In this document: piece after piece, positions 4,856 through 53,332 of the stretch
How positions within the stretch are numbered: the first letter of the stretch is position 1
Layout of the letters: every line of letters begins with the position of its first letter
DNA from: a virus
IMG/VR virus record: IMGVR_UViG_3300025869_002638
Coordinates: 1-59,088 of that record
Length of the DNA: 59,088 bases
Strand: one strand, 5' to 3'
Notes under the pieces: generated by a model
What the model was told of the DNA's origin: nothing
Seen by the model: the letters and a program-made list of their open reading frames with translations, nothing else
The model's database searches: none
Position numbers and translations under genes: made by a program

Positions 4856-5881
4856 CTATTGTTTCTTCAGAAGTTTAATGGGTACATCAATGCGATACCC
4901 AGTATTGAATCCCGTTACTCGAATAACAGTATCAATATAGTAATAATTTATTGCATTGATTGTAGCAGTACTACCCAATGTTGTAAAGATTGTACTAGAT
5001 GCTTCTGTCTGCTGGGAAGATCTCAGTGAAAATACTAATCGTGTTCCGATTCGACCAGTCGTTGAGGTAGGTCCAATCTTTTTAGTAGTAGATTGAAGTT
5101 GTCCACCGTTGTTTCCGGGGCTCAAATCATATGTAAAATTGTTTCCATTTGCATGAGCCAAAACTCCGCCGTCTGCATTTTGTTGTGCAAAATATCCAGG
5201 ATCGGATTGCATAGAGAAATAATAACTTGCCACGTTATCATCATCCACAAAACTTGGAGTAGCCAAAGTGTTATTAGTTCCCACAGTAGGAGTTGCTAAT
5301 CGCAAGAGTCGATTGTCTACTTCGACAATATATCTTGTCTCACCCAACTCAGGTTGCGATGCGCCGAGGTATCCAGCATTCAATAAAGAAGATTCAAGTC
5401 CCTGATCAAATATAAGACTACTAACACTGGTGACTTGGTTAGCACTTGCAAAACGAGTTCCGCCACCGGTTATAACGCTCAAAGACCGAGTACTGTCATC
5501 ATCAACGCTAACTAAGTATCCTCCGACGGGAACATCGGCGTTGACTCCAGAATCACCACCAACACGATACCCAGCATCATAAATGTTGTTAATTCGAATT
5601 AGTGGAAGATAAAACAACTCATCATCAGCATAGGATAATAACTTGTGTTTAAGGGTTGAAGTATTATTAGTAAATGCCTCAAAGACAGGCAATTTAAGAA
5701 TTCGTAAATCTTGGTATCCCGAAGATGTTACAGGAGTATAAAGAGAGTAATCAATCTCATCATCACCCAGGGCAAATTTGGTGATTGTAAATGATCCATC
5801 ACCAAGCGCAAGTCGTCGGCGACCCTCATCTGTCAAAACCGCATCAAGCAGAATGTCACCACTGTTATCTAAAAATCCCAT
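4856..5881 (-). CDS. virion structural protein with 'LT-G-DDxIDY' N-terminal module
   Basis: 341 aa. The N terminus (MGFLDNSGDILLDAVLTDEG, then GDGSFTITKFALGDDEIDY) is a module I recognise from structural proteins of marine T4-related phages. A similar pattern opens the protein at 12608-13516. The rest is beta-rich with many Ser, Thr and Asn; the C terminus (GYRIDVPIKLLKK) is basic. GAGG lies 8 bases before the ATG. A 60-base AT-rich gap separates it from the 969-aa gene upstream, the largest gap inside the tail module. Role in tail/baseplate assembly is inferred from context. Confidence 0.72.
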   Translation of the reverse strand: MGFLDNSGDILLDAVLTDEGRRRLALGDGSFTITKFALGDDEIDYSLYTPVTSSGYQDLRILKLPVFEAFTNNTSTLKHKLLSYADDELFYLPLIRINNIYDAGYRVGGDSGVNADVPVGGYLVSVDDDSTRSLSVITGGGTRFASANQVTSVSSLIFDQGLESSLLNAGYLGASQPELGETRYIVEVDNRLLRLATPTVGTNNTLATPSFVDDDNVASYYFSMQSDPGYFAQQNADGGVLAHANGNNFTYDLSPGNNGGQLQSTTKKIGPTSTTGRIGTRLVFSLRSSQQTEASSTIFTTLGSTATINAINYYYIDTVIRVTGFNTGYRIDVPIKLLKKQ

Positions 5882-5941
5882 AACTTTTCCTCTTTCGTAC
5901 CATGCTGGTAGTTATTATTAAATAGTATCGATTTATCAAAA

Positions 5942-22500: not shown

Positions 22501-23462
22501 GAAAGTTTACCATAGCCCTGGTCTACTCCGGAAAAGCCTGCACCAGCAGGTGTGGTTCGGAGGGCACCTATATTGGCTATCATAGATCCAGTGACTGTCC
22601 CTATTGCGCCAGCAACAGTTGGAGCGATTCCAGTCTGTATACAAGTTCCATTAGCAAAAAAGTCCAGAGTAGGGGAACTAGATGTGGTATTAAATACGAA
22701 TGAAAAGTTTCTCCAAGTATCATCATTGATCGGAGTAGTCGCCGTGGGTACAACAACATTATCAAATCCAGTAGATCCCGATCGGAAAGTAACTTCAAAA
22801 TGATCACTCGATCCAGTTACCACTTCAATGCGAAGTCGTCCGTATTCATCAGATGTAGTACTGGCACCATTCCATAGATCAAAAACTACCTGGCGAGGAG
22901 ATTCTACCGTATGATCAATAGCGGCGGCTTTTTTATAGAAAAACTCAACTGTTGTCCCGTCAGGTCCGCCAAACTCAAGATTAGAAGTACGATCCTGCTC
23001 TACATTGTAAAAAGTATTTTTGTGGGGACCACCCTTAACTTGGACATATTGAGCCGAGGAAGAGGCATACCCTGATGGATGAGGGGTAATAGCGCCATAA
23101 GTCACGCCATTCTGTATAAAGCCAGTAGATGTAGGATAGATTTCCTCAAAGAAATATTTTTCAACAGGATTAAGTTTATTATAAAAATCTACCTTTTCAA
23201 ATTCAGAACCATCGTAAGGATAATAACTTAAAATATACTCAAATGCATTTTTATAATACTGTTCAGCCGAGCCAAACTTGACAAACTCTTCAGGGTTTGA
23301 ATAATTGATAGGAGGCAGAACATAATCTTGTTTCTGAAGAGAAGCCTTGAGATGAGCCTCGGATTCAATTCCGTCACCTAAAGTGTCAGGAGCACTTAGT
23401 CGTAGGTATTTTCCTACAGTTACTGCCTGCTTATTTTTGTCAAATAACTTTTTTACGCTCAT
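13527..23462 (-). CDS. giant modular tail/baseplate protein (3311 aa)
   Basis: The longest gene of the window. Residues of about 135-340 look like a LamG/pentraxin-type jelly-roll domain, with TVEFFYKK, WRNFSFVF and LDEFRFWKTARNDEEIGRYW; such domains often bind glycans. Residues of about 1050-1160 hold a charged helical stretch with FFRRVKNDIPDFDKYLRYYKW. Residues of about 2045-2165 and 2170-2280 are two copies of an Ala/Thr/Gly-rich module ending LTAxxAGTAxN. There is no signal peptide, membrane segment or tape-measure-like continuous coiled coil. The ATG overlaps the upstream stop (ATGA). Most likely it is a peripheral baseplate or receptor-contact protein; a role in adhesion is inferred from the lectin-like domain. 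Confidence 0.72.
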   Translation of the reverse strand: MSVKKLFDKNKQAVTVGKYLRLSAPDTLGDGIESEAHLKASLQKQDYVLPPINYSNPEEFVKFGSAEQYYKNAFEYILSYYPYDGSEFEKVDFYNKLNPVEKYFFEEIYPTSTGFIQNGVTYGAITPHPSGYASSSAQYVQVKGGPHKNTFYNVEQDRTSNLEFGGPDGTTVEFFYKKAAAIDHTVESPRQVVFDLWNGASTTSDEYGRLRIEVVTGSSDHFEVTFRSGSTGFDNVVVPTATTPINDDTWRNFSFVFNTTSSSPTLDFFANGTCIQTGIAPTVAGAIGTVTGSMIANIGALRTTPAGAGFSGVDQGYGKLSASLDEFRFWKTARNDEEIGRYWFANVGGGSNKYDVNVSLGVYFKFNEGITTNAAVDQVIMDYSGRLSNGLYVGYNSTNTRNTASAINQLKIESIHEFGDPIVRSSNPNYTTLLADYILTGSNYDYQNNARLLNHLPNWIIEEEEQGSNEIVSLTQIMANYFDTIYNQITYIKNLRYMDYVSGSLSSSYTHFPYNDRLVENLGIEAPELFANAGTLQQFLQRDEQINFDDQLEDIKNSIYKNIYNNLNFILKSKGNEKAIRNFIRCLGVDDEIIALNTYPNNADFELVSNYKAGVSTKKFADFTAHLDQADDEAIVYQYYDSTNPNSVGTISGSTSLGEFAFTLQSELDLAVKQDYRNLGYNIPQVVTASVMGFHTPADSSPTITDTTWAAASSDYGLQVQVIKSPGEYPEIFEPAHKVKDAYFLVKDREGKTLLTSSIFNNVYDNTKWNLALSLRPERYQFSDGVIGSAVAQTGYTLELYGVNYQNGIKKYSFSSATDLSATSGSNIIESAKKVYLGASRFNFTGSTLVNTDIRGSSVRYWTDYLPNSTVDHHAKEVDTYGRLNPYRNAYEFQSAAPNVYIPKIQTLALNWDFADISGSDSSGRFMVTDYSSGSNVQVYPNEYQGPVFSNINLREHTGRGDFFKSSFTPVRKQYVYTDHLQIPEYVGGDNMVNVPTSDDETFGIYLRPIDFFFAVERSMYRSISNRMLEMFASIEEFNNIIGEPVNKYRLNYKRMEKLREIFFRRVKNDIPDFDKYLRYYKWIDTAMGEMIQELFPVSAKYAPEVRKVVESHVLERPKIQHKLTILRDKHPVAGITGSLGAGFGSVCRTSPGWKFKHAPIPALQSRNCNWWRTRAERDVPPLIASGGNLTTRNAVLNAVQKQVDGTNFLCVDGQIVAPIYGGINQYLNKKRRIRDYTFDQFKSLEDCDDVLDPMQKKLVPFRATKDGVNYKGAQLTPFTAISSSLTTGYNAQLNSLGLTGISLNNLHEDSISPYRHSVPLQGPFTKRWVGGIQARHVAPFRTIDRREEYNLTITSGTGSVTTITTGIIPKGQYLRGLSSKSPVNLANIKTIITGSTPGDGVRKVGNFERNYEVVQGNSRFETNIDFIFNNSRYQYSMPSAFITPPARRTSGLTGSADYPAPRQVPNRRKTEVILVDMFASPGSKEDSKQQFRDVNSDQFSPNSALPFRNLAVINPYLKRLGTHSTFGGYQYDPATGAPSTTPSATKIQRNTVLRLEMGFSGAATPTTVGTASVYDDGFVTRPVPNADRAQWTSYLSGSENASIYDQYVALGSRYPANITFVTQSATAYPSTFSNSLITNAGGKSEFVWANNRDYVSWKQMQAGNSQKAQYFWQNNLYELLPQEVVTLNDEVKFDDGSNGSIATKTRTIYSRNGQAEPHYYSQRFREAPITSRYKALLHQMRTPIGTPSKTSERHTSIAMEYTYGNMLMGFANRELNEQIQGDVKFAHGKIKRPYEVLRDQFVENVQRSVNGAELIKDFTYRETIYPKEVYTYLSQSRARQAFVYSHWRDDAIVTGSAAVTSLTDYSKLISRVNIDGFNRQSTRLKGDFVTSQGYPVQNLDQVPYEDPSSLPAGPGSGSIWPLDSYLYSDFDTSLVTVLTASTPVVLADAGTMAAGELMMTHYGTINDRITDPGGSLNNGTAVYITSSINSAQYVYNVPVTKVDCTTTSAVAAVAAITASRGEGEGLTTATGQFVLGSSADGSSLFGAVTLEIQDLTSTKTFKFVNNSNSNTFDAGTNTYEMGVENPPFVGVYFTKEECRNQLFSAIESARVDASPLNIALPAKSGTDTIDLTAGTAGTAWNSRNITSNDTGVLGVAVTSWAGATDYTYNSKTLDLEDVAHGVVSYIFDAATAPGASTDTIIGTFGATATSDVIAAIAQTISLSQAAGAINITPGTVAGSTVPLTADVAGTAMNGKPVAGTAETDGGVTTVAFAAGAAASTVCVDLPEPRSPGSVYTRPAWTAGVSRIYVDGPNKRQSAAQSRPFYDTYEKYVENIRLAGKEKTIMPEFRISEHIKQYQQNGSLLSIVSASLELTGANHTMFNGVNSSFYQRFAETDKLEFLGDFMPDDILQRDFIFNNYPRHFELGSEAIVKMLPYDGFYPANRSLEIAALFRDAYIGNAVLTGTSGSATSAWRSLLRPFLAPGILYNSIKSGIAVDYPIRRTTRNLTQYLSSSATLPLHGCLSGTLSVSNAPGTIPGNRRRNLSTANWQNADINSFFWADRLPFETLVDPVPALKTGESLGTVLSDLNEYLYLDATGSISAKSLNDTLYKKAMSNFLANVPKFFLKKKTNKYGPEGYLTKFVSQFGAPPKDGQQNTAPERTVEVEKDAAYMMEIGLLKTENFNQYSNPYAFGIPTSTGSVDWHGLTSDELPKGREQNWPKHRGEFAPFTPPYYYGPSLVRMLFMPRGDKNDYTLDEILNNDRGELFVQYLNESGSYYDMTSGSFIDRDNNVVTSVATPSYGWNRAWQNRMDIDASVNIFNTFPTSTGTSYRSTDPNKWTIMPKWECPVLDFPSSQTAEGVPSYQFSASVGTGTYYSGSKGMWHQYGVQPDNDEGVYMYIKDIPTGNSEEYDFVAITYLDGATAKRTNKYVKKVPKFVSDAERTVKSLGDLVGFDSEEIIRNGIDFSKAKRLGELGEDNEKSLSEAVLALPVYFDKDQKPRIIPLRAPADKLGPKIKEFRKRFTKFSLPPALANGLLGLVPQGYPNIPDLINPFGPDDYDQVLDGTKMLHTPVVYLLEHKISLTKQDLADMWQGVMPDISQRFNMSYTAVDHYLPGDNVEETATKFPEVLKEQIILDIPRNERDGHPRYDLLDISGLPDLRGVYPEIRWLVFKVKERGLVGYDQMVMEEVDGVDALSYEKVNGFLSAQGLTPESAARFMGTMDNWAKTVYSYKHSLTEGSYNWPYDHFSLVELNKLDTKFVFRPELEREYTEESRNNPLPGEGQIPEGGLEIPPLGAGLGLNLGAQNNDE

Positions 23463-24965: not shown

Positions 24966-26774
24966 TTATGTTACCACCCCAGAGATATCAGTACCAGGAA
25001 CAAGAACTTCGGCTACAGCGTCTTCTGGTATTAACAAAAAACGACCATCGTCCGAGAGGTTACTGTCTATATCATAGACTACGTCGCTATAAACACCACC
25101 ACTCTGATTAATTAGTTCCACATTTGTAGTATCTACAACGCCTGGGACATCATTTAGGAGTTTATAAATCTCTGATATATAAATCGCCTCCCCTACATTA
25201 AACTTAATATTGATATAGTCCTGTTGGAGTTTCTGAATACAGTCCTGAAGAAGTTGATATCGATTGACATCCAGGGCAGGCAAAATACGGAAATTTATTC
25301 CAATATTGATCACTCGTCCCTCCAGTACATCTATAGTATCGTTGATCATTCGATATCTGTTTAGCCATGTTTTAACATTTTCTTTTAAAGTACTGTTGGG
25401 GACTATGAGATCTCCTGCGCTATTTTGAGACATTAGGTACACGTTTAGGTTGCGTTTTAGCGAATTAGTATCTCGGATAACATTACAGCGGAACACTTTA
25501 CCAAACTTGGATGGCATCCTGTAAAGTAGATTAATATAATCAGTTCGTGTAACTGCACGATTCTGTGCAGCATAAGTTCCAAAGGCTCGTTCTCTGACCT
25601 CATCAGGCAAGAGAGGCTCTGTGTCCCCTAGAATAGGTTCTTCGTTCTCTACTTCTAAAGATGTCTGGACGTCTGTTACCAGCGTCGCATTCAGCGTTCC
25701 TTGATTCTTAAAAGAAAAGTTTGCTCCAACAACAGAATTAAGTGTCCCCACGGCAGCATTGACATTGGAAGTTGTGTTCGCCACATATTCTATTGTCAAA
25801 GTAGTGTTAGAGGGAACTACACCGAATTTGTCTGTCTGAATAAGTTTTCCAGGATCAAATGTAGTATCTGTAATATAATTTCTGCCCGTTACATCCAGAA
25901 CCACATCTGCCGGATCTGCTACAACATCCCCTGTAAGGTTTTCCTCCGACCCATACCCAAATTGAATAAAAGTATTTCCCTCATAAGTATTTGTAGAAAC
26001 AAACCTCCGAGGAACTGGGACAAGCCTCATCACATATGGGACAGCAGTCCGATCACTATTAATGTTTTTTACTTGTTGAATCACTACATCTTGAGTCAAA
26101 TAATCGACTTCATAATATTCGTTTCCTTGGCTATCTGTTACCGATAATATCTCAGATATATTTCCCCTGTTAAGTTTCACTTGGCGGAATCGGGAATAAT
26201 CTCCTACAGTAATAATGTCTCGGAAGTTCTGTCCTGAAACGACCGTACCGTAGGCTTTAATGGCAAAGTGTGTAGGATTACCAGTTGTGATATCTACGTT
26301 TGCCACAGTTACTTGGTTATTAGGATCAGTAAAATCCACATCATCTATCAGGCTATAGATAGCACCCTGAGATCCGACGCCGCCACCAGCCCCGATAAGA
26401 GACCCAGCCCTAAGAATTGGGAAATAATCTAGATCAGGTCCTCGTGACAGTGAATTTGCAGGTACTGTTACATATAAGGCAACTTGTCCAGTCGATTGTG
26501 CAGCGCCGGCGGTTTTGTATCCAAGCATGTTTGAGAGGCGGATAACATTATCAAATCTGATGGCGCTATCCAAAAATGTCTCATTAGTTTGAAAATCTGC
26601 ATAAAAAGACAACTGATCGCCAACATAGGCAACCATGTCCACCATCATCGCTCCGAACGAGGCCTCGCTAAAGTCCTTAAAAGTAGTTGGATAATAACGC
26701 TTCGCATAGTTAACCAAGTCATTTCGAATCGAAGTATAATCTTTGCTAGTATAATTAATTGGTGGTTTTGCCAT
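24966..26774 (-). CDS. baseplate wedge protein, T4 gp6/J-like
   Basis: 602 aa, close to the length of T4 gp6 (660 aa). The N terminus has the family signature: YTSKDYTSIRNDLVNYAKRY, FKDFSEASFGAMMVDMVAYVGDQLSFY split by short turns, then NETFLDSA. The middle holds PDEVRERAFGTYAAQNRAVT, also typical of gp6/J proteins, followed by the YxxLLYRMPSKFG segment. It forms the inner ring of the baseplate and connects wedges to the hub. An AAGGGA site precedes the ATG. It lies directly after the gp25-like gene, the usual order in contractile-tail phages. Confidence 0.93.
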   Translation of the reverse strand: MAKPPINYTSKDYTSIRNDLVNYAKRYYPTTFKDFSEASFGAMMVDMVAYVGDQLSFYADFQTNETFLDSAIRFDNVIRLSNMLGYKTAGAAQSTGQVALYVTVPANSLSRGPDLDYFPILRAGSLIGAGGGVGSQGAIYSLIDDVDFTDPNNQVTVANVDITTGNPTHFAIKAYGTVVSGQNFRDIITVGDYSRFRQVKLNRGNISEILSVTDSQGNEYYEVDYLTQDVVIQQVKNINSDRTAVPYVMRLVPVPRRFVSTNTYEGNTFIQFGYGSEENLTGDVVADPADVVLDVTGRNYITDTTFDPGKLIQTDKFGVVPSNTTLTIEYVANTTSNVNAAVGTLNSVVGANFSFKNQGTLNATLVTDVQTSLEVENEEPILGDTEPLLPDEVRERAFGTYAAQNRAVTRTDYINLLYRMPSKFGKVFRCNVIRDTNSLKRNLNVYLMSQNSAGDLIVPNSTLKENVKTWLNRYRMINDTIDVLEGRVINIGINFRILPALDVNRYQLLQDCIQKLQQDYINIKFNVGEAIYISEIYKLLNDVPGVVDTTNVELINQSGGVYSDVVYDIDSNLSDDGRFLLIPEDAVAEVLVPGTDISGVVT

Positions 26775-26800: not shown

Positions 26801-27205
26801 TTAGTTAGCCATAGTAGAAGTGATGCGTAATTCATCCTTCGCATTATATGGAAGAATGTTGTATTGAATTACTACCTGTACTTGGTTATAAGCAAGGTTG
26901 CTGTTTTCATCTGATGTGACAAAATCTATAACCTCGATGTTTACGCTGGGCATATAGACATCTTTTTGTTCTGTAATCTTTTCGACTAATCGATCCATCG
27001 TCTCGCCGGAAAGAGGTTCAAATAAAAAGTTATAAAGACCAACTCCAAAGTTTGGCTCCATAATACGCTCACCGGGGGAAGTAAGAATAAGATTTTTAAA
27101 ATTTTGACGAATTGTCTGCGTCAAAGTCTTATTAAGCCGATAGGGTCCATCGGTTTCACTATATGATAAAGGTAGTTGGGGAGATATCCCTTGTAATTTA
27201 CTCAT
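26801..27205 (-). CDS. baseplate wedge protein, T4 gp25-like (GPW/gp25 family)
   Basis: 134 aa, the usual size of gp25. It contains the family core: an N-terminal LTQTIRQNFKNLILTSPGER segment, then MEPNFGVGLYNFLFEPL with the conserved Pro-x-Phe-Gly and Leu-Phe-Glu, and a C-terminal strand with VIQYNILPYN. gp25 is part of the baseplate core bundle at the start of the sheath and has a fold related to lysozyme-like sheath initiators of type VI secretion systems. The start overlaps the end of the 1935-aa gene by 8 bases. Confidence 0.93.
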   Translation of the reverse strand: MSKLQGISPQLPLSYSETDGPYRLNKTLTQTIRQNFKNLILTSPGERIMEPNFGVGLYNFLFEPLSGETMDRLVEKITEQKDVYMPSVNIEVIDFVTSDENSNLAYNQVQVVIQYNILPYNAKDELRITSTMAN

Positions 27206-30200
27206 TTGGTTTAATTAGTGTTTCTAGTGTATTTTTTTCAATTCTAACGCTTTGTAAAGAAGGTCCAGTATTTAAGCAGACGTATTCCTGGGCATCACCT
27301 AGTGTAGATAGTACTACACCATAAACCATACGCTTCACTATTGGTGTCTCGCTAAGCACATCACCAAACGACCTTTCGCCAAATAATCCATTTACATATG
27401 AATCCAACCTAGTACTACTATAAGTACATAATTCATCGACTGATACCAAATTTGGGGCACCTTGCGCCGAGGCGGCGTTGCCATAAGGACCAACATCCCT
27501 GCTTCCAAGGGCTGCAAAGTAATTACGTGCCGAGGCTTTCCATGCACTTTGTAGGTTGGCTAATCGGGCTACGGGCTCGCCGCCGGCGGGTTTATAATTC
27601 TGTGACACGATCGTTCTGATTTCCTGTTCGCTCCTCACCAGATACTCTTCATACATTTCCTCAATTTGTTCCTCAGTGAATGGAGGCATATATTCAGGTT
27701 GTTTCCACCAAGCGTCGAGATTGCCGAGAGGATTATTGCCTCCAAGCCAATCTTTAGCGGAAGAAAATACCGTCCCCATTGCGTCATAATATTCTGGAGG
27801 TGCATCATAAGGGCTCATATACCGGTAACCGTTATCAAGGACAGTCAAAGCTGCCTCTGAAGTCCGCTGGCTAACTCCTCTTGTTCGGTCCTCAATATCA
27901 ATTCTCTCAAGAAGCGAGGTTTCAATGAGGTTAGGATCAGTTAGAAGCCGATCTAAATAAGCAACCCTCTCTTCAACCTGAGGTGTGGAATAATATGTAA
28001 TATCATAAGATTCATTATATTCTAGAACTGAGACAGGGAACCCTACATATTTATTAGCAAACTTGGAGTATGTTTGCCCTCTGACTGCGCCCAGGAAAGC
28101 GTCGTCACTCCCTGCAATCTCTACCTGAGATCTATAGTAGATGTCACTATAACGTTCCCCATATTTTACTGAGTTGTCATAATATATTAAGTAAGTTGCA
28201 TACAGAGGTCCAATGGGGAAATAATATGACCCCACCTGTTCTCCGAAAGCCGTCACAGTTTGAGTATTCGGGTCCCTCATTTCTCGCAATAGCCTAGACG
28301 CAGCAGTGACCTGGTTGTCTCTAATCCCCAGGTTTGCGTAATTACCTTGTTTGATTTGAGAGGCCATCTCTTGGTAGAACAAAAACAACGAGGACAGATA
28401 TTTAGTATATGAAGGGTTATCCCTTCCCAGTACTTCAAAATTGTCATAAACTGATCGGTTGATCAGAGAATATTCTGATGTTCTGGCAATGTTATCTAAC
28501 ATTCTTACAAATATTTTCTGAATTGTTTCTTTGAGGTTTTCGTCTGGTGTTTTACTGTCACTTATCACTAACTGAGGGTTTTCAACAGGGAAGTCCGCAT
28601 AAACTTTCTCAATCATATCAAAATTCTGTAACAGAGGAGTTAATATATTTCTGCTCTTAAGTTCTTTTCGTATTTTTCGATATAAATAATCAGTAATCAA
28701 ATTTACAGTTCCCGTGTTATTCCAACAAGGATATACTCGTGCTAACGGCAAAGTATTAACAAAGAACTGTTGTATCCTAGACTGTATCACGCTGACCCAG
28801 GCTTCTGCGTCCGCTTTTTGGTCAGCAGTGACGCAAATATCATCATTGGCAACAAATACTTCTAAGTTAGTACCGTAGATGTAACGAGGCAAGCGGCGCT
28901 TTCCAACATCGGATGTAATAACACGATCAATTTGTGTTTCAACAAACTCAGAGGGGTTACTTATAACATTCAGACTTTCATCTGTTGTGTCAATACTAAA
29001 AGGATTGTCATCATCTACTAATTTTAAAGACGTCATGAAAAAACTATTAATCATTTGTTGTACAGCACTTGAGGGGCGCTGTAGTCCAGCCCCTGTTCCC
29101 GAAGAAAGACTCGGAAGGGCAGTGCCGCCAGTATTCAAATTTTGTGTACCAGGTTCTATTAAATTATTTAAAAGCATTCCATAAGATACAGGAGAATTAG
29201 GCTCAGTAGCAAAATCCTGAGGGTTCCAAGATGCCAACAACGACTCATTATTATAGGGGTTAGTTTGCCCAAATCCCCTAGAAGAACTCTGTGGGCTATC
29301 AACATAAATACGAATACCTGGCTCTATTGGATCATTGCTATTACGGACAGATAAAGCCACAGTGGGAAAGAATCCGATATAAGGCTCCCTGTATTGGATC
29401 TGTTTCAAATATGGCTTAATATATTCCGTGGCTCTTTCTGAATAGACTCCTTCGTATTGTCCTAATGCTACGTCCGGACGAGCAGGGATGGCTGAGTTTC
29501 CAATTTTTTCTCGTAAATGTTGAGGTGCTGTGGAGGCAGCGTATGAGCCGATGCGAGCATCTGATGTACTGTCGTCTGTTATACCATAGTGTGCATAAGG
29601 TAAGATAAGTTGGGTTCCTAACTCCTTGTAGGCGGTTGAAGGTATCTCTACACGATCCGTAGAATAGTTAACAATAGGTACTCTATAAACAAAACGATTT
29701 GTACTTGTTTTTTGCAATCGAGGCACGACCATGGAACTATGGAGCATATAATAACTCTGATAAAATAATTGAATTCCAATCTCTGTAGAATATAAATTAT
29801 AGCGTGGATCACTAACATTTTGAGGCTGTTTGCCAAAAGCATTTTTCCACCATGCCGATAACATGCTAGTAAGATAGGGCAAGATTCGAGCCAACAATCT
29901 CAAGATACTATTATACCACTCCATCATCGGCAGGCTAGCTAACAATTGGTCCAACTGAAATTGGAGGCTTTGCAAACTGCGAAGATAATCACAATAAGAA
30001 TTGATCCGAGCAATTTTACTAGAAAATACCTGATCAAATTGTCCAATCATCTGAGCCTCACTCAACCTCAACTTAAGAGTAGTTAAGTCAGGATCTCGAT
30101 TTTCGCAAAATTCATCTAGCGCAGATGGAGAATCTTCTGACTCTAGTTCCCCTAAGCCGGCACCAATGGCTGCAAAAAATTCCTTTATCTTTTCCTTAGT

Positions 30201-33005
30201 AAAAATAAAGTCATCATAAGGGGAGGGATTTATTGTTTCGTATATAAATTCATAGTCTTCACCCGTAAATTCATCTTTGATCGCCTGAATAAATTCTTCA
30301 CCGACGTTTTGGTCTCCCGGATCTTTGTGACGGACTCCGATTGGCCAAGATATTGATCCATCTTTCACGGTTTCTAAAATAGAGCGATACAATAGGTCAT
30401 CAGCATCACCTCCGAGTAGGCTGGTCATCTCGGTGGGGGTAACCATCTTAGATACATCAGCAATGAATTTTTGAAGTTGTTCAGCACTAGGATCTGTTTT
30501 GACTGTTATTGTCTCATCATCGATGATCTCTTGGTTAACATTTACCAGATCTACATCTTTAGCAATTTGTACGATGTCGAGGTTGATGAGTAAATTATTA
30601 AGCTCTACTCCGCCGTAATCGTACTGCCTAAAGGCATTTTGGAGTAGGTCTAGTTCACTCTGACCAGCAGCAGGACCACATCCTGCCACAGCCTTTACTA
30701 GATCCTTGGCAACGCCTGCCAAAAGAGATTTCAAAAAATTAGTAATAATTCTATTAATGACGGCACGATAAGCCGATTTGGCTCTATTTTGCTTATTCAT
30801 CATTGGTAATTTTTTAAATTCTAAAACCAGTGGTTGTTTTAAATCTTTGGAGACCCGAGACAACTGGTTAGTAGCGGGCTGTGAATCAGTTGCTTGTAAA
30901 ACTGCGGCTCCAACTGCCCCTCCTAATACATCCAAAGAGCAGAAAATCTGATTCTCTACAAGGCGTTGCACTTCCCTTGATATATTTTGAGGATCAGCAG
31001 TAGCGCCGGCGGTAAGTAAGCGCCGGGTGGTCTCATCTTGAATCACTTCCCTTTTCAGAACTTGAATAATTCTCCTCAAATATGTACGTACTGAAATCTT
31101 TCCTTCTAATACCGCTATAGCGGTGAGAGTCTCTCGAAGGGCTTGGGCGGCGAGGGTGTCGCAGCCCGAAGCAAATAAGGCGTCACTCAGGAATACATAC
31201 CTTTCTTTTTTGTTCCAAAGCCGATTTGCTTCGCTTTGAGGAATACGAGAATACTGAGCAAGTTTTGTAAAAATATTCTTTTGCTGGGATAAAGTGTTTG
31301 AAAGATCAAAGGTCCCTTGATTCCTTTTTACTTGATCAATCTTTTCGGGTGAAAAATCAGGCTGTGGAAAGGTATACATCGACAAAAATGTTGCCCATGG
31401 CTGGCGAGTCTGTGGGGTAGTCAACAAAGACTCATTCGATATTTCCAAAGCATTATAGATATAAGAGAATGTAGTTGCAGTTAAGTAGGCAAAAGCGTCC
31501 AAAACTACAGTGGGAGTGCCCTCTACAGGCTCAGGCTGAAAATTAGGATTACCCGTTGCCCGTGTATAGGCCACCCCATTTATGCAGATATACAATAAGC
31601 GAAATGAGTCGTCAAAGAAAAATTGTACAAGATCATCATCTTGCAGGGACAGTCGATTATAAGCATAAAAACTCCCGAATAAATCATAAAATGACTCGAT
31701 CTTTTGCGATTCAATATCTAGGTCTATATTGTTCAAGAGGATAGGTCCAAGCCCTTCTTCTCTTAGGGTCTGGCCATATTCTTCGAGCATGTCTGAGACA
31801 TCAACCAATTTCTGTGCAAGGTTTAGGTTCTCAAAAAATCGAGGCTCTCGACTGCTTACATTTGTTTTTTCTGTGTCGGTTATTACCAAAGAAAGTTGAT
31901 AGGGAGTAAGTGCCTCATCCTGATAGGAAATTGCGTCAGTGACTGGCAGGCTATTAATAATTTCCTGGTCAATGGTGATGGCACAAACCCAGCGGGATCC
32001 CGGACGGGGATCCTTGGAAGTAAACATATTGTACTTGCGAAAACGAGGAGTATCCTCTTCCTCTAAGTTATATTGTTGAAATTCTGGTGCCTCAATTCCC
32101 CCAAACGTCTCTTGTAGTGCCAGATAATTCCCTCTAGATAATCTACCTGAGAATTTTAGTATCTCTTTAATTCCTCGGTCGGCAATATCTTGATATTTTT
32201 GAAGTACTCCTTGGCTTTTCAGTTCTGGCAGAATCCAGGCTATATCCAGAGAATTAAAATCTGTTAAATCTGTTCGAACAACATAATAGAATTTATCGTC
32301 AACTACATTGAAATACACTTTCTCTTTGTCTGTTTCTGGTTCTGCATTTTTTGTCCACTCGTAAAGATCCACATTAGACTCTGACCCTACGAAAGTATTA
32401 ACCTGGGGAGATATTAAAGTGTTTTCAAGTGGTGCAGTATTTGGATTTATAATATCCCTTGTACGCAGACCTAATGCTGACCTTAATCGAGCCAAATATG
32501 GGAATGAGTGAGTAGGATTAATTGCCATAAGGTTAGCGATATCCTGATCGGGCTGTGAAGCGCCGGCGCTGGCTTGAGATAATTCTGTAGTGAATGTTGT
32601 ATAATTTTGAATTACAGAATTTTCACGTAGACGAGCAACTAAAGTTCCTAGTTCTCTCTGTGCCTCATCTCCACCCCAAGGCTCCATAACCTGTGTTCCA
32701 GTTATGGAATCCCGAGTTAGTCTACCGTTCTGGGGATAGATTGAAAAGTAGGCACGGGCATCGGTGGATGTTATAATTCTTTGCCCATCAGGGAGCGCAA
32801 CATCCGGGGACATCTCAGTTCCAATATTAGGAAAGTTTTGAAAATTAATATAACTATCGTGGATAGCCTCAATCACAAATTTGTTGCGAATGCCATGATA
32901 ATCATAAGGATCAACTCCCAACTGACCACCTAAGCGGTCCTGATATGTCTGATCAGCATATGGGTTGACGATATTCTTTTGTCGGGTTGTTAAAATAACA
33001 CTCAT
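27198..33005 (-). CDS. very large baseplate-associated structural protein (1935 aa)
   Basis: No known domain is recognised. The sequence is mostly soluble, with Gln/Asn/Tyr-rich parts, several charged helical regions (for example near residues 600-760 with YVFLSDALFASGCDTLAAQAL, and the VCxxRDPDLTTLKLRLSEAQ-like stretch around 960-1000) and a C-terminal region with short strands. It lies between the gp25-like gene and the gp5-like spike gene, a place where contractile-tail phages carry hub or wedge genes, so a baseplate role is likely. A TAAGG lies 12-14 bases before the ATG. Unusual for its size; it may have arisen by fusion of several baseplate genes. Confidence 0.68.
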   Translation of the reverse strand: MSVILTTRQKNIVNPYADQTYQDRLGGQLGVDPYDYHGIRNKFVIEAIHDSYINFQNFPNIGTEMSPDVALPDGQRIITSTDARAYFSIYPQNGRLTRDSITGTQVMEPWGGDEAQRELGTLVARLRENSVIQNYTTFTTELSQASAGASQPDQDIANLMAINPTHSFPYLARLRSALGLRTRDIINPNTAPLENTLISPQVNTFVGSESNVDLYEWTKNAEPETDKEKVYFNVVDDKFYYVVRTDLTDFNSLDIAWILPELKSQGVLQKYQDIADRGIKEILKFSGRLSRGNYLALQETFGGIEAPEFQQYNLEEEDTPRFRKYNMFTSKDPRPGSRWVCAITIDQEIINSLPVTDAISYQDEALTPYQLSLVITDTEKTNVSSREPRFFENLNLAQKLVDVSDMLEEYGQTLREEGLGPILLNNIDLDIESQKIESFYDLFGSFYAYNRLSLQDDDLVQFFFDDSFRLLYICINGVAYTRATGNPNFQPEPVEGTPTVVLDAFAYLTATTFSYIYNALEISNESLLTTPQTRQPWATFLSMYTFPQPDFSPEKIDQVKRNQGTFDLSNTLSQQKNIFTKLAQYSRIPQSEANRLWNKKERYVFLSDALFASGCDTLAAQALRETLTAIAVLEGKISVRTYLRRIIQVLKREVIQDETTRRLLTAGATADPQNISREVQRLVENQIFCSLDVLGGAVGAAVLQATDSQPATNQLSRVSKDLKQPLVLEFKKLPMMNKQNRAKSAYRAVINRIITNFLKSLLAGVAKDLVKAVAGCGPAAGQSELDLLQNAFRQYDYGGVELNNLLINLDIVQIAKDVDLVNVNQEIIDDETITVKTDPSAEQLQKFIADVSKMVTPTEMTSLLGGDADDLLYRSILETVKDGSISWPIGVRHKDPGDQNVGEEFIQAIKDEFTGEDYEFIYETINPSPYDDFIFTKEKIKEFFAAIGAGLGELESEDSPSALDEFCENRDPDLTTLKLRLSEAQMIGQFDQVFSSKIARINSYCDYLRSLQSLQFQLDQLLASLPMMEWYNSILRLLARILPYLTSMLSAWWKNAFGKQPQNVSDPRYNLYSTEIGIQLFYQSYYMLHSSMVVPRLQKTSTNRFVYRVPIVNYSTDRVEIPSTAYKELGTQLILPYAHYGITDDSTSDARIGSYAASTAPQHLREKIGNSAIPARPDVALGQYEGVYSERATEYIKPYLKQIQYREPYIGFFPTVALSVRNSNDPIEPGIRIYVDSPQSSSRGFGQTNPYNNESLLASWNPQDFATEPNSPVSYGMLLNNLIEPGTQNLNTGGTALPSLSSGTGAGLQRPSSAVQQMINSFFMTSLKLVDDDNPFSIDTTDESLNVISNPSEFVETQIDRVITSDVGKRRLPRYIYGTNLEVFVANDDICVTADQKADAEAWVSVIQSRIQQFFVNTLPLARVYPCWNNTGTVNLITDYLYRKIRKELKSRNILTPLLQNFDMIEKVYADFPVENPQLVISDSKTPDENLKETIQKIFVRMLDNIARTSEYSLINRSVYDNFEVLGRDNPSYTKYLSSLFLFYQEMASQIKQGNYANLGIRDNQVTAASRLLREMRDPNTQTVTAFGEQVGSYYFPIGPLYATYLIYYDNSVKYGERYSDIYYRSQVEIAGSDDAFLGAVRGQTYSKFANKYVGFPVSVLEYNESYDITYYSTPQVEERVAYLDRLLTDPNLIETSLLERIDIEDRTRGVSQRTSEAALTVLDNGYRYMSPYDAPPEYYDAMGTVFSSAKDWLGGNNPLGNLDAWWKQPEYMPPFTEEQIEEMYEEYLVRSEQEIRTIVSQNYKPAGGEPVARLANLQSAWKASARNYFAALGSRDVGPYGNAASAQGAPNLVSVDELCTYSSTRLDSYVNGLFGERSFGDVLSETPIVKRMVYGVVLSTLGDAQEYVCLNTGPSLQSVRIEKNTLETLIKPNE

Positions 33006-33018
33006 GGTTTATTTAGCC

Positions 33019-34038
33019 TTAATTAACGGAACAGAATTTGCTTCTGAAATTGTGTACCGGCAACGGGTTATAGATTTTCTTCAGGTCTTCACTGAATTTG
33101 CCGCCATAGTTTGCCTTGTGAAATTCATAGTTCAAATCTTGAGTATACAAATCTATGTAGGCAGGAACTATTTTTGATGTCAGTTCTTTAAGTTTTGATT
33201 GGGAGACTCCAGTAGGGTCGGCAAAAGAAGCCATCAAAAACGTAATCAACTCAAGATTAAAATACACACTCGACTGTAGATCGTCAATTAAATCAGTAGT
33301 CTTGTCAAGAACCGTAACTAACTGATCGCCCTTAACCATAGGCTCTAAAGTAGAGGCGTCGTTGCCGGCAATCAGGGCAATTGTCCCTGGTGTTCCCTCT
33401 ACATTCATTCCTCTGGACCCCTGATAGACATCTGTGCCGGTTACGATTTTAATACCTTCTCGTGCAACCACTCGCACAAGATCGGACTTTATGACGATTG
33501 CACCTCGTCCGGTCATACTGCCTTCCCCTGGTGCTTTTGCAATATTAAAATACTCCTGGGAGTCGATATCGTGAGCCATTTGCGTCATATAGATACGAGA
33601 ACAATCTAATTCTGTATGTTTATTGGTCAGAACAGGCTCCCCAGAAGCATCCACTTCTCTTTTTAGAACTCCCGATAATCCTGCGATCAAGTCAATGCAC
33701 GCTGCGTGACTTACAGGTGCTCCTTTAGGGAGTCCGGCTTGTGCAGTTCTTTGAGACAGTGGTGTGTCCACTCCCTGGGTGGCTGCCCTAGGGAGCCCAG
33801 AACCCATGCCCGATTTAATACTTCCTGGGCGGTCTCGTCCTTGAATGATAATACTGCCACATTTACCTTGCGATACTGTTTCTGCATCAGCAACCAAATA
33901 ATTCGGATTAGGCTCAGTAAATAACGGAGTTTGGTCTATCCCATTGCCCTGTTCCCCTACTGAGCCCGGATCCTCGTCAACAACTCTCTTTGTCTGTGCA
34001 GTCATAAATGCTGGCAGTATAGATGGAAATTTAGACAT
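33019..34038 (-). CDS. baseplate spike/hub protein, gp5-like
   Basis: 339 aa. Residues of about 165-230 carry a segment typical of marine myovirus gp5-like spike proteins: GRGAIVIKSDLVRVVAREGI, then IVTGTDVYQGSRG and a hydrophobic IALIAGNDAS. The N terminus is Gly/Pro-rich and the C terminus is helical. No lysozyme domain is present; the cell-wall cutting activity seems to be moved to the M23 peptidase encoded directly upstream (TAATG overlap). It would form or hold the central puncturing device below the tail tube. The family call rests on pattern memory, not on a search. Confidence 0.68.
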   Translation of the reverse strand: MSKFPSILPAFMTAQTKRVVDEDPGSVGEQGNGIDQTPLFTEPNPNYLVADAETVSQGKCGSIIIQGRDRPGSIKSGMGSGLPRAATQGVDTPLSQRTAQAGLPKGAPVSHAACIDLIAGLSGVLKREVDASGEPVLTNKHTELDCSRIYMTQMAHDIDSQEYFNIAKAPGEGSMTGRGAIVIKSDLVRVVAREGIKIVTGTDVYQGSRGMNVEGTPGTIALIAGNDASTLEPMVKGDQLVTVLDKTTDLIDDLQSSVYFNLELITFLMASFADPTGVSQSKLKELTSKIVPAYIDLYTQDLNYEFHKANYGGKFSEDLKKIYNPLPVHNFRSKFCSVN

Positions 34039-35330
34039 TATGCTCCCGATCCCCCATAAGCCCCACCGGGGTTGTTTCCGGTAGTTCCTTTGATCGCAAA
34101 CCCTGGTCCAAATAAGAACTGACTTATGGGCTCTAGAGAATCAATAACTTCCCCCTTCACGCCAATTTTGGAATTACCTCGGGGGTCATAAAGAACCTCA
34201 AAGTGAAGATGCGGACCCGTGCTACGCCCTGTGTTTTGTGAGGTTCCAATTTTTTGCTTTTGAGAAACCGGATCGCCTACTCGTACTAGAGGCGGTCCCA
34301 TGTGTGCATAAAGGGTGTAAAAAGGACCCCCGTAAGGAGTAACAAAATCTGTATGTTCAATAACAACATACCACCCATAACCTACCTTGGTGCTGGGGGC
34401 TCCTTGTAGCCTACGTCTTACCACCTTACCCGGCAGGGATGCATAAATATTTGCCCCCATTGGCGCAACGAAATCAACTCCTGCATGGTTTGTACTAGCG
34501 CCGGCGAGTCCTGTCCGCCGGGGACCAATTCCTGATGTTGCAAACTTCGTGAAGAAACTATCTGAAGTATATCCTGATTGAATAGATGGTGTTGGTGCCT
34601 GATCTGCATCATTAACCGATACAGGGTTTGTAGGATAAACAATTTGGGCTGTTGCTGCTGGTGGTGGTAGAGAAATGAAATTTCGGCTCTTGGGTCCTTG
34701 ACGAGGGCTCGGGGTACCAGGGGCATTACAGGATCCAGAAACAGTATTGGAGCCGTTTGAGCCAGGGGCTCGGGGATTACAATTTCCATTCTTACCATTA
34801 AGATCCTGGGATTTCAATTGATTAACACTAATAATAGTGCCAGCGGATATATTTGGATTAGTACTAAACCCCATGCGAGGGTTACGAAGTACAATATCAA
34901 CCTCAGACCCGTGCCCTATCTCAAGTCCACTAGGATTAGAGACTGTTCTGTAAAAATTACCTGAAGCGTCAGAATTCGAAGATGGAGGACGAACCTGCAA
35001 AAATGCGTCTCTGTTATCGCTTACAACTTGGACTTTTACAACAGGATGTTTACCTATTGTGGGCTCTGTAGAGGTGGCCCATGGCCAAACTAAACCAAAC
35101 CAGGATTCAGATTCAGGAGAATTTATCGAAGGGACATGAACAACTCGGGCTTTTAAAACTTGGTCGCCGCCGGTGGTATTTACTCCAACAGATGTCCTGA
35201 GGACTTTCTTTACAAGATGGGAAGCCGGGTCCTGTCCGTAAACTAACTGTTCATTATGATAAGCGTCTGTATTAGCAGAGATACTTATAGAAGGATCAAG
35301 CCAATCTGCTTTTGCATCTGATTTAGCCAT
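34038..35330 (-). CDS. tail-associated M23 metallopeptidase (lysostaphin-type)
   Basis: 430 aa. The C-terminal domain (about residues 270-400) has a complete M23 zinc site: HAGVD (H282, D286), an HM after the LYA strand, and HLHFE (H374, H376). M23 enzymes cut peptide cross-links of peptidoglycan. The N-terminal 160 residues form a beta-rich domain (VLKARVVHVPSINSPES, WPWAT) resembling OB-type baseplate hub domains, and residues of about 175-260 form a Ser/Pro/Asn/Gly-rich linker with several Cys. No signal peptide is seen, so it is most likely virion-borne and acts during injection, next to the spike protein. It overlaps the genes on both sides. Confidence 0.88.
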   Translation of the reverse strand: MAKSDAKADWLDPSISISANTDAYHNEQLVYGQDPASHLVKKVLRTSVGVNTTGGDQVLKARVVHVPSINSPESESWFGLVWPWATSTEPTIGKHPVVKVQVVSDNRDAFLQVRPPSSNSDASGNFYRTVSNPSGLEIGHGSEVDIVLRNPRMGFSTNPNISAGTIISVNQLKSQDLNGKNGNCNPRAPGSNGSNTVSGSCNAPGTPSPRQGPKSRNFISLPPPAATAQIVYPTNPVSVNDADQAPTPSIQSGYTSDSFFTKFATSGIGPRRTGLAGASTNHAGVDFVAPMGANIYASLPGKVVRRRLQGAPSTKVGYGWYVVIEHTDFVTPYGGPFYTLYAHMGPPLVRVGDPVSQKQKIGTSQNTGRSTGPHLHFEVLYDPRGNSKIGVKGEVIDSLEPISQFLFGPGFAIKGTTGNNPGGAYGGSGA

Positions 35331-50924: not shown

Positions 50925-51596
50925 CTATTCTAGTAGATGGTGAATTTCATCTATAGTATCATACAACACAGGACTGATTTTGTCAAGTTTGTTCTTTTTG
51001 CCCATGTAATAGGCTTCAAAACCAGTTGCAAAATATTCTCGGAGGGAAATAGCAGCGTAAGGTCGAATAAAAATTCCAGTAGTTGCCATCCTTAACATGT
51101 TTCTCCCGACTCGCTTGTAAAGAAAGGTGTCAAAATCTGAGTCATACTCGATATTGTCAAAGTCGTAGTCCTTTGTCCAGTAGCCTTCCGACTCTAGTTC
51201 AAACTTTAACTGGAATCTTTTTTTCTTGAATTCCCTAGCAACTACACCCGACCCATAAATTTCATCAGTTAGTAGAGTTTCAACATGATGTGCAAATTCG
51301 TGGATAATATCGTCAATTAAGTCTTTGACATTTTTTTGCTGATTGGTGATATAGATAGAGTTGTCCTTATACACAGCGGTAATGTGACGCTCGTTAAATT
51401 CTTCCAGATGCTTGATTGCAATCTTGTCTAATCCTCTAAAGAAATGTTCTGGTAAAACATCTTTTATCTGGTTCATTAACTGAGGTAATTCAATTGTAGG
51501 GGGAAGCGGATCTACCTCAACCACATCTATCCCATGGATTCGGAAATGATTAGTATTACTGTCTTTAGACTCTAGGATATAATCTCTTATGCTCAT
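50925..51596 (-). CDS. zincin-like HEXXH metalloprotease, hypothetical
   Basis: 223 aa. The motif DDIIHEFAHHVE holds HEXXH (H99, E100, H103), the zinc site of gluzincin/metzincin peptidases. Upstream is a beta hairpin (HITAVYKDNSIYITNQ), as expected before the active helix. A possible third ligand lies in the region with FELESEGY. No signal peptide, so it acts in the cytoplasm or virion. Prediction: a phage protease or an anti-defence or maturation factor; no named family is recognised. The start overlaps the PhoH stop (ATGA). Confidence 0.75.
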   Translation of the reverse strand: MSIRDYILESKDSNTNHFRIHGIDVVEVDPLPPTIELPQLMNQIKDVLPEHFFRGLDKIAIKHLEEFNERHITAVYKDNSIYITNQQKNVKDLIDDIIHEFAHHVETLLTDEIYGSGVVAREFKKKRFQLKFELESEGYWTKDYDFDNIEYDSDFDTFLYKRVGRNMLRMATTGIFIRPYAAISLREYFATGFEAYYMGKKNKLDKISPVLYDTIDEIHHLLE

Positions 51597-52900
51597 AATA
51601 TCTCTGCTGCTAAGGTTGCTAATTTTGAACGTTCCCCTTTGTAAAGGGTTACATGTCCTGAAATATCATATTGTTTGAATTTTTCAACAGCATGAGTAAG
51701 TCCATTGGATACTGAGTCAACATAAGAATTATCAATCTGCTGAACATCGCCGGTTAACACTAGTTTCGTTCCATGTCCCACTCGTGTTATTATAGTCTTT
51801 AGTTCGTGAGTTGTTAAATTCTGAGCCTCGTCCACAATCATAAAAGCATTTGAGATAGAACGTCCTCGGATATAGGTCATAGCCTCTATTTCAATGACTC
51901 CTTGCTCCATGTGCATATCTAAAGCGGTTTTATCACCATATAGAAATTCTAGATTATCCCGCAAAGGGGCAATCCAGGGCATCATCTTCTCTTCCAAAGT
52001 ACCAGGGAGGAAGCCGATATCTCTTCCCATGGGTTGTACCGGTCGTGTAATAATTAATTTATCATAACCACCCTGAGATTTCGTAGAGTGCAACACTTGT
52101 TCCAGCCCACAAGCGGCAGCGATTAGAGTCTTGCCTGTACCGGCCGGTCCTGTCAGAGACATAATGTGAATATTGTTATCAAACAAGAGATCCATAGCGT
52201 ATTTCTGTTCTTTGTTTTTTGCACTTAATCCCCATATGTCATTATAAGTATACACCCGGCGTAAAGGCTCGCCTTCCTTTAAAAATCGAGAGATCGCAGT
52301 TTTCTTTGGATCTGATTCAGACTTTAGAAGGATATACTGATTCGGGTAGAGCATTTTTTTCTGCTCGGGTAAAATAATTTCTTTGTTTTCGTAAAATAAG
52401 TCAATCTGACTATCGGGAACTAAAATTTCACAAGATCCGTCAAATATATTATCTACTGACTTGACTATTTGCTGAGGTTGGTAATCATGACAAGATATTC
52501 CAAAAGAGTCGCACTTTACCCTCATATTTAGATCACGAGATATGACTGCTACATCTCGACCCTCGTAAGACAAACGCAAGGCTATAGCAATTATTTTATT
52601 GTCGGAATCTGTTACCTCCATCCCTGGTGGCATATATCTTGGATCATAGTGTGCAGCGAAGACTCTTCCCTTGCCAGAACCTAAAGGAACGCCCTTGGAG
52701 AGACTGCCCTTGTGCCTTAACTTGTCTAAAACACGATTCATGGTTCGTGCATTTAAGCCGGCTGTATCTTGTCTGTGTTTATGTTTATCTATCTCGTCTA
52801 GGACAACCGTAGGTATAGCGATGTCAGATTTGCCGAAAGAAAATAGAGACTGAGCCTCAGTTAAATAAACGTTTGTATCTAATATTAAAGTTTTTGTCAA
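51593..52900 (-). CDS. phoH: PIN-PhoH fusion protein (PhoH2-type ATPase/RNase)
   Basis: 435 aa. Residues of about 4-150 form a PIN nuclease domain, beginning LILDTNVYL (D8) with VVLDEIDKH and the acid pair in VTDSDNKIIAIA. From about residue 230 follows the PhoH ATPase: Walker A GPAGTGKT near residue 250, RPVQPMGRDIGFLPG, and Walker B IVDEAQN near 357. PhoH2 proteins couple RNA unwinding to cleavage. The frame is open to 53026, but that would translate the tmRNA 3' end and its terminator; I chose TTG at 52900, preceded by AAAAGG. A 6-codon open frame (52923-52903) ends two bases before this start and could couple translation. Confidence 0.9.
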   Translation of the reverse strand: MTKTLILDTNVYLTEAQSLFSFGKSDIAIPTVVLDEIDKHKHRQDTAGLNARTMNRVLDKLRHKGSLSKGVPLGSGKGRVFAAHYDPRYMPPGMEVTDSDNKIIAIALRLSYEGRDVAVISRDLNMRVKCDSFGISCHDYQPQQIVKSVDNIFDGSCEILVPDSQIDLFYENKEIILPEQKKMLYPNQYILLKSESDPKKTAISRFLKEGEPLRRVYTYNDIWGLSAKNKEQKYAMDLLFDNNIHIMSLTGPAGTGKTLIAAACGLEQVLHSTKSQGGYDKLIITRPVQPMGRDIGFLPGTLEEKMMPWIAPLRDNLEFLYGDKTALDMHMEQGVIEIEAMTYIRGRSISNAFMIVDEAQNLTTHELKTIITRVGHGTKLVLTGDVQQIDNSYVDSVSNGLTHAVEKFKQYDISGHVTLYKGERSKLATLAAEIL

Positions 52901-52939
52901 TTTTACAACCTTTTTTGTATCATAGTAAATAGATTCCCG

Positions 52940-52966
52940 AAAAACAAAAAGCCGCCCGAAGGCGGC
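52940..52966 (-). terminator. intrinsic terminator of the tmRNA
   Basis: Directly after the CCA end of the tmRNA, the minus strand reads GCCGCC-TTCG-GGCGGC followed by TTTTTGTTTTTC. A six-base-pair GC-only stem with a stable UUCG tetraloop and a U-rich tail is a textbook Rho-independent terminator. It separates the tmRNA from phoH, whose TTG lies about 40 bases further on; read-through could still feed phoH. Confidence 0.93.
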
Positions 52967-53291
52967 TGGTGGAGGTAGGGAGAATCGAACTCCCGTCTTG
53001 TCTAGTTCCACAGAAAGGTCATTCACAAGGTTGTGTCTGTATTTATCGTCGGACAGACAACTTGACTAGATCGTTTTATTGCGGCTAAAACAATCAAAAG
53101 CACTTGGGACTACCTAATACGGCTTTCTGTTTATTGGCTGCCGTCGCCTCAAGAGTGGTCAGGTTATTAAGCCGCCATCTCCATGTTAAAATCGTCATTT
53201 GCGATTAAAAGTTTAAGCGTTTTTAGTGAGCCACGCTTCCCTCACCCTTGCACCTTTTCTACTTCCCCATCAGTCGATACCGGTTACCCCC
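52967..53291 (-). ncRNA. ssrA: tmRNA, one-piece (ssrA)
   Basis: 325 bases. The 5' GGGGGTA and 3' TACCTCC before ACCA pair as a seven-base acceptor stem with a G3-U70 wobble, the alanine identity signal. The 3' part GGGAGTTCGATTCTCCC is a T arm. GTATCGACTG matches the conserved 5' region. A first pseudoknot is visible: GTGAG (53245-53241) with CTCAC (53230-53226), and AAGCGT (53238-53233) with ACGCTT (53220-53215). The tag frame starts GCA at 53202 and reads ANDDFNMEMAA, stop TAA at 53169-53167, followed by TAACCTG as in enterobacterial ssrA. It rescues stalled ribosomes by trans-translation and tags the peptide for proteolysis. It lies between structural genes and phoH with its own promoter and terminator. 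Confidence 0.95.
53167..53202 (-). other. tmRNA tag-peptide open frame (ANDDFNMEMAA)
   Basis: Eleven codons from the resume codon GCA (53202-53200) to GCT, then TAA (53169-53167). The tmRNA-carried Ala adds one more residue in front. The start AND is the conserved beginning, and the end MAA is close to the LAA that ClpXP recognises. Upstream TAATC before GCA corresponds to the resume-site context of enterobacterial tmRNA. The MEM stretch is unusual in place of YAL. Confidence 0.9.
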
Positions 53292-53303
53292 ATTAACATA
53301 AAT

Positions 53304-53332
53304 ACTATACAATAATACGCAATAGTTGTCAA
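53304..53332 (-). promoter_or_regulatory. sigma70 promoter of the tmRNA
   Basis: On the minus strand a perfect TTGACA (53332-53327), a 17-base spacer and TATAGT (53309-53304) lie just before the tmRNA. Transcription would begin near 53297, six or so bases upstream of the mature 5' end at 53291, leaving a short leader for RNase P to remove. The near-consensus sequence predicts strong expression by the host polymerase, independent of the phage late sigma factor. Confidence 0.88.

Follow-up and report, generated by a model that had tools for sequence, protein, structure and literature searches.

A one-piece tmRNA gene with a conserved promoter and terminator in a lineage of uncultured T4-like marine phages

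Phage-encoded tmRNAs are established, having been reported in 402 of 18,146 phage genomes (2.3%, PMC9004378), a frequency that agrees with the view taken in the original prediction for this locus that most phages rely on the tmRNA of their host. Mycobacteriophages carry a tmRNA (Hatfull 2006, as cited in PMC12656738), tmRNA-bearing isolates include Bradyrhizobium elkanii phages (PMC12656738) and the Stenotrophomonas phage Marzo (PMC8928761), and huge phages have been described with tmRNA and, in some cases, with SmpB (PMC7162821). The methylophage Melnitz, a marine T4-like myophage, encodes a tmRNA in two pieces, located downstream of an early promoter, as well as a glutamine riboswitch, and its authors proposed early use of the tmRNA, for ribosome rescue or for tagging (PMC9004378). 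Phage tmRNAs have usually been treated as curiosities of single genomes.

We analyzed the linear IMG/VR virus record IMGVR_UViG_3300025869_002638 over its whole length of 59,088 bases (the window), which is a fragment from an uncultured T4-like marine phage. Like Melnitz, this is a marine T4-like phage with a tmRNA; whereas the Melnitz tmRNA is permuted, in two pieces and accompanied by a glutamine riboswitch, the present tmRNA is one-piece, and our Rfam search returned no riboswitch match. Phage tmRNAs being already known, the present case adds to a known kind a one-piece tmRNA that has its own promoter and terminator. We consider it probable (roughly 0.8) that this is a genuine, working tmRNA gene that forms its own unit, transcribed by a host sigma-70-type RNA polymerase.

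The tmRNA gene, its transcription signals and its neighbors

The original prediction had placed a complete tmRNA cassette at 52940-53332 and proposed a covariance model search and a comparison of copies in related phages as checks. Rfam model RF00023 aligns from end to end (model positions 1-374) with the minus strand, scoring 76.7 bits with an E value of 4.5e-28, well over the gathering score of 47 bits, and this is the sole Rfam match within the window. The predicted coordinates are correct, and the G3-U70 pair, T arm, first pseudoknot (PK1), tag frame and encoded CCA were all found in the sequence (Table 1). A two-piece (permuted) tmRNA is ruled out by the full-length, one-piece match in model order. 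In the 39 distinct tmRNA sequences collected from the related loci described below (including those of the window and of contig L073), column pair 4/348, which corresponds to the alanine identity determinant G3-U70, is G-U without exception, and compensatory changes occur in 23 of 62 predicted pairs; the helices downstream of PK1 show such changes, with PK2 to PK4 being putative as pseudoknots. ARAGORN called no tmRNA in the window and called the orthologue in most relatives, and phage surveys based on ARAGORN therefore undercount this tmRNA family.

Table 1. Features of the tmRNA locus and of related genes (window coordinates unless a contig is named)
Feature	Coordinates	Strand	Basis or remark
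One-piece tmRNA (ssrA), 325 nt including encoded CCA	52967..53291	-	RF00023; orthologs in the same place in about 46 contigs
Acceptor stem, 5' strand GGGGGUA, G3 at 53289	53285..53291	-	Pairs with 52971-52977
Acceptor stem, 3' strand UACCUCC (U70 at 52973), discriminator A, CCA	52967..52977	-	RF00023, alignment of relatives
T arm GGGAG-UUCGAUU-CUCCC	52978..52994	-	Covarying pairs in relatives: GC/AU, GC/CG, AU/GC
Pseudoknot PK1 (GUGAG/CUCAC + AAGCG/CGCUU)	53215..53245	-	Almost invariant across the clade
Tag frame ANDDFNMEMAA, resume codon GCA at 53202	53170..53202	-	Reading of the sequence
Tandem stop codons UAA UAA	53164..53169	-	Reading of the sequence
-35 element TTGACA	53327..53332	-	17-nt spacer; kept in most of 39 distinct relatives
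-10 element TATAGT, 12 nt upstream of mature 5' end	53304..53309	-	Alignment of relatives
Intrinsic terminator, 7-bp GC stem, UUCG loop, T run	52938..52967	-	Conserved in nearly all relatives
CTATTTA element between terminator and PhoH	52926..52932	-	CTAnnTA in 46 of 46 relatives
PIN-PhoH protein (PhoH2-like), invariably the next gene	51593..52900	-	PF13638 + PF02562; phrog_2765, E 1.7e-107
Upstream gene, 271 aa	53429..54244	-	Without PHROG or Pfam match
Tail/lysis-type peptidase	34038-35330		Nearest virion-type gene set
Baseplate wedge	24966-26774		Nearest virion-type gene set
ClpP-like peptidase	L147 7254-7856 (and homologs in nine relatives); L055 2419-3018; L149 7220-7831		

On the minus strand, the cassette reads TTGACA, 17 nt, TATAGT, 12 nt, the tmRNA from GGGGGUAACCGG to CUACCUCCACCA, and then AGCCGCC UUCG GGCGGCU UUUU, with the terminator (AGCCGCC-TTCG-GGCGGCT-TTTTG at 52967-52950, plus tail) starting at the final base of the CCA. 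In a scan of a 15-kb stretch this promoter, with 11 of 12 consensus bases, was joint best and this terminator the strongest; the total number of promoters was near chance (44 found versus 38 +/- 7), and we do not take the scan by itself as proof. We regard both signals as real because promoter, spacer and terminator are conserved in the 39 distinct relatives: 30 of 39 distinct upstream regions match the promoter consensus at 11 or all 12 of its positions, compared with 0.3% of shuffled sequences, and the spacer is exactly 17 nt in 38 of the 39 best sites. This analysis upholds the claim that the tmRNA has its own promoter and terminator, namely a sigma-70-type promoter with fixed spacing and a UUCG terminator conserved across the clade. 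Three distinct relatives (L002, L034 and L035) have lost this promoter or have another sequence in its place, and tmRNA expression can therefore differ between phages. In L034 and L035, a sequence with a different inverted repeat (ACCGATAGTA...ACTATAGTAAACGGT), 60 nt upstream of the tmRNA, replaces the sigma-70 promoter, and this sequence is perhaps another type of promoter.

All long reading frames of the window form one minus-strand array, in which the tmRNA is followed by genes for the PIN-PhoH protein, a zincin-type metallopeptidase-like protein, an exonuclease and glycosyltransferases (PHROG/Pfam), and is preceded by genes for proteins of 271 and 1121 aa to which no role is assigned. The nearest recognisable virion-type genes are at least 17 kb from the tmRNA, so that the predicted location in the middle of a virion operon is not borne out: the flanking genes, though all on the minus strand, are not recognisable virion genes. 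The presence of a baseplate wedge and other phage genes in an IMG/VR virus record shows that the DNA is of phage origin and not contaminating host DNA, as do the occurrence of the same locus in about 46 viral contigs and the gp23 and prohead protease genes of the relatives. The window also contains two very large reading frames (13527-23462 and 27198-33005; 3311 and 1935 aa). The zincin-type metallopeptidase gene (window 50925-51596; L055 7581-8258; L098 5848-6534) is near or directly after PhoH, in the outgroup too, and its product gives weak matches to Peptidase_M90 and ATLF.

PhoH2 is a PIN-PhoH RNase-helicase (Andrews and Arcus, as cited in PMC7824862), and the adjacent phage gene has the same order of PIN and PhoH domains. 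What sets the phage clade apart from described PhoH2 is the constant adjacency to a tmRNA, which would be consistent with a functional link; by analogy, the PIN-PhoH protein could cleave RNA and thereby create substrates for the tmRNA. PhoH appears to have transcription signals of its own. A conserved ACTATTTATAA-type motif, seen as CTATTTA in the window, precedes PhoH and other genes, and is possibly a phage-type (late) promoter. The density of CTANTTA is approximately 8 times higher in intergenic sequence than within genes, with a 10:1 bias to the gene strand. The window as a whole has 22 copies on the minus strand and 4 on the plus strand. The conserved CTAnnTA element behind the terminator suggests that PhoH is under control differing from that of the tmRNA, and the presence of this different element ahead of PhoH fits separate transcription of the tmRNA by the host RNA polymerase.

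Conservation, tag peptides and descent

A search of IMG/VR with PhoH identified 57 loci. Within the group with 68-83% PhoH identity, every contig that extends far enough upstream contains the tmRNA, and in 46 loci the tmRNA is located upstream of PhoH with a gap of 58-82 bp. This comparison demonstrated that the tmRNA cassette is kept as a unit in the phage clade. The PK1 signature was present in 48 viral contigs, all of them already in the PhoH-derived set except L098, in which a PhoH gene also follows the tmRNA. The PhoH gene of L098 (3091-5787) carries an intein-like insert (QPLDAKILTPFGW...VTHN before TLEEK), seemingly with glutamine first. The related phages encode a T4-type gp23, with Flavobacterium phage immuto, Microcystis phage Mel-JY01 and RM378 as nearest matches at approximately 45% identity; these matches are too distant, and we therefore name no host. 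The phage collection contained no near match at the DNA level, and DNA searches with the tmRNA returned T-arm matches only, with none in plasmids.

The tag codons are GCA AAT GAC GAT TTT AAC ATG GAG ATG GCG GCT TAA TAA. Across the relatives, codons 1, 2, 10 and 11 show synonymous changes only, leaving the peptide AN....AA invariant, and comparing the 18 distinct tag sequences gives 253 synonymous and 128 non-synonymous single-base differences between codons, these being pairwise counts and not independent events. Since the ends of the tag vary only synonymously, we infer that the tag is translated and selected as a peptide. Three tag classes are present in the clade (xMEMAA, QLA(Q/L)AA and NNNAELALAA), and their distribution requires about 10 class changes on the PhoH tree and 3 on the tmRNA tree, exact counts being soft as both trees are quick builds and the tmRNA tree includes the tag columns. 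The larger number of changes on the PhoH tree makes it probable that tmRNA cassettes with their tags have been swapped between phages through recombination. None of the three classes was found in a bacterial tmRNA in a single genome scan, whose restrictive pattern (an ATCGC context and Phe at position 5) leaves room for similar bacterial tags and gave one chance match, without a tmRNA. The idea that the phage employs a tag of its own choice is plausible, and gains some support from the three classes, the bacterial pattern search, the apparent selection on the peptide and the class changes beyond those of the PhoH tree. In L045 (IMGVR_UViG_3300009129_001478, 5607-5933), the tag frame is shortened to GCA GCT TAA, i.e., two codons, with the rest conserved; the tmRNA of this one contig may be either decaying or rescue-only.

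In a more distant outgroup (G011/L055) with 54% PhoH identity, PhoH is preceded at a distance of 4-6 kb by a homologous tmRNA whose tag is ANEDVEFESYALAA or VNDDVEFESYALAA; the tmRNA is therefore probably an old possession of the lineage. The tmRNAs of the clade and the outgroup share the AAACAGAAAG element in the PK2 region, and this supports their common descent. In L055, the tmRNA is flanked by two promoter-like sites, TTGACA-17-TATTCT/CATACT (1310-1365 and 1655-1700), both with the -35 box within an inverted repeat (CCACGGGA...TCCCGTGG and GCCACAGAC...GTCTGTGGC); these repeats are possibly operators.

Proposed function and alternative explanations

In our reading as a working phage tmRNA, the host sigma-70-type RNA polymerase would make the transcript, host RNases would trim it, host alanyl-tRNA synthetase would charge it, and host SmpB and EF-Tu would deliver it to ribosomes stalled on broken mRNA, where the ribosome would append A-ANDDFNMEMAA and terminate at UAA UAA, and the tagged peptide would pass to a ClpXP-type protease. 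SmpB was found in none of 11 relatives, nor in nine other phages or contigs, and host SmpB is presumably used, since the relatives have none of their own. The gain would be that ribosomes stay free for phage translation during the destruction of host mRNA, possibly brought about in part by the adjoining PIN-PhoH RNase. Early expression of the tmRNA in infection is plausible. The hosts surely possess a tmRNA too, and the contribution of the phage gene may be no more than extra dose. During T4 infection of E. coli, ssrA is one of a small number of host transcripts that stay stable (PMC9697503), showing that the capacity for rescue persists in such infections.

An alternative that we consider unlikely, though with several observations in its favor, is that the main gain lies in proteolysis, with the phage tag and a phage ClpP-like peptidase acting with a host ClpX or ClpA unfoldase to recycle selected or unfinished proteins. 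A ClpP-like gene is present in 9 of 9 searched relatives of at least 109 kb, and its product resembles solved ClpP (E 4e-18); inspection of the sequence locates Ser and His in the motifs where they are expected. The PHROG models label this family "head maturation protease", which speaks for a different role, but the four longest relatives and the outgroup additionally encode a T4-type prohead protease, S77, and the ClpP-like protein is therefore probably not the head protease. The outgroup gene order is tmRNA, a 95-aa gene and ClpP, with ClpP approximately 0.7 kb downstream of the tmRNA in contigs L150-L152 and no more than 3 kb from it in L154, a more distant contig, whereas in the main clade the two are approximately 40 kb apart, and the window, as a fragment, lacks ClpP altogether, its ClpP and tRNA genes being attributed from relatives. 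The nearest ClpP outside the clade (50% identity) is in LR756511, which also has a tmRNA; among 12 reference phages a full-length tmRNA over the cut-off occurs only in LR756511 and LR756508, two huge phages that give the two best ClpP matches, but in five other phages with ClpP no tmRNA exceeds this cut-off. The co-occurrence is suggestive of a link between ClpP and tmRNA; against this, co-occurrence in one lineage is a single event, and no ClpX-type unfoldase was found in 10 relatives. A wider proposal, that the phage encodes a partly self-made pathway in which the PIN-PhoH RNase would break mRNA, a tmRNA with a phage-specific tag (of the MEMAA, QLAQAA or ELALAA type, swapped between phages) would act on it, and a tag-matched ClpP-like peptidase would follow, the host providing only SmpB and an unfoldase, is doubtful and in our estimate somewhat less probable than tagging for proteolysis.

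We judge equally doubtful a role in counter-defence, in which an additional tmRNA would restore translation after mRNA cutting by toxin-type RNases or other defence nucleases. It would be in keeping with the ability of tmRNA to free ribosomes stalled by RelE-type cleavage (as cited in PMC9697503) and with the conserved host-type promoter and terminator; however, there is no link to any specific defence, the neighbors are not known counter-defence genes, and host tmRNA is already abundant. It is very improbable that the gene is a passenger, i.e., a host ssrA acquired through an imprecise excision event, or retained for its use as an attachment site, and functionless for the phage: ssrA is a frequent prophage attachment site (PMC9004378, PMC12656738), but the whole cassette, including a tag apparently selected as a peptide, is conserved in about 46 contigs, no integrase was found among the window proteins scanned, the phages are T4-like with gp23, and the outgroup holds an older homologue. 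A prophage attachment-site remnant is ruled out for the clade, where the tmRNA is intact and conserved, with no integrase seen among the scanned proteins of the window. A chance tRNA-like fold or annotation artefact, for which only the silence of ARAGORN on the window could be cited, is ruled out by the E value of the Rfam match over the full model, by conservation and by the acceptance of most orthologs by ARAGORN.

Comparison with known tmRNAs

A tmRNA at a fixed place throughout a lineage, with promoter, terminator and an apparently selected tag, argues that the tmRNA pays for itself. The approximately 40 natural variants in three tag classes represent a test set for what a phage gains from trans-translation, and the co-occurrence with a ClpP-like gene and the constant PIN-PhoH neighbor provide a concrete, testable hypothesis. 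Compared with E. coli ssrA and bacterial one-piece tmRNAs, the phage tmRNA has in common the acceptor stem with G3-U70, the T arm, PK1, the resume codon GCA (after UAAUC here and UAGUC in E. coli), the tandem UAA and the encoded CCA; a multiple alignment gives 53% identity with E. coli ssrA. It is shorter (325 versus 363 nt), with a tag of 11 codons, ANDDFNMEMAA, versus ANDENYALAA in E. coli, the tags of the clade ending in MAA, QAA or LAA. In contrast to the huge phages for which SmpB was reported (PMC7162821), no SmpB was found in this clade. As in known phage-borne tmRNAs, a complete tmRNA is present in a phage genome and host machinery is presumed; it differs from them in belonging to an uncultured T4-like marine clade with no DNA-level match in the phage collection, in its location outside a tRNA cluster, and in having a dedicated promoter and terminator, shown through conservation.
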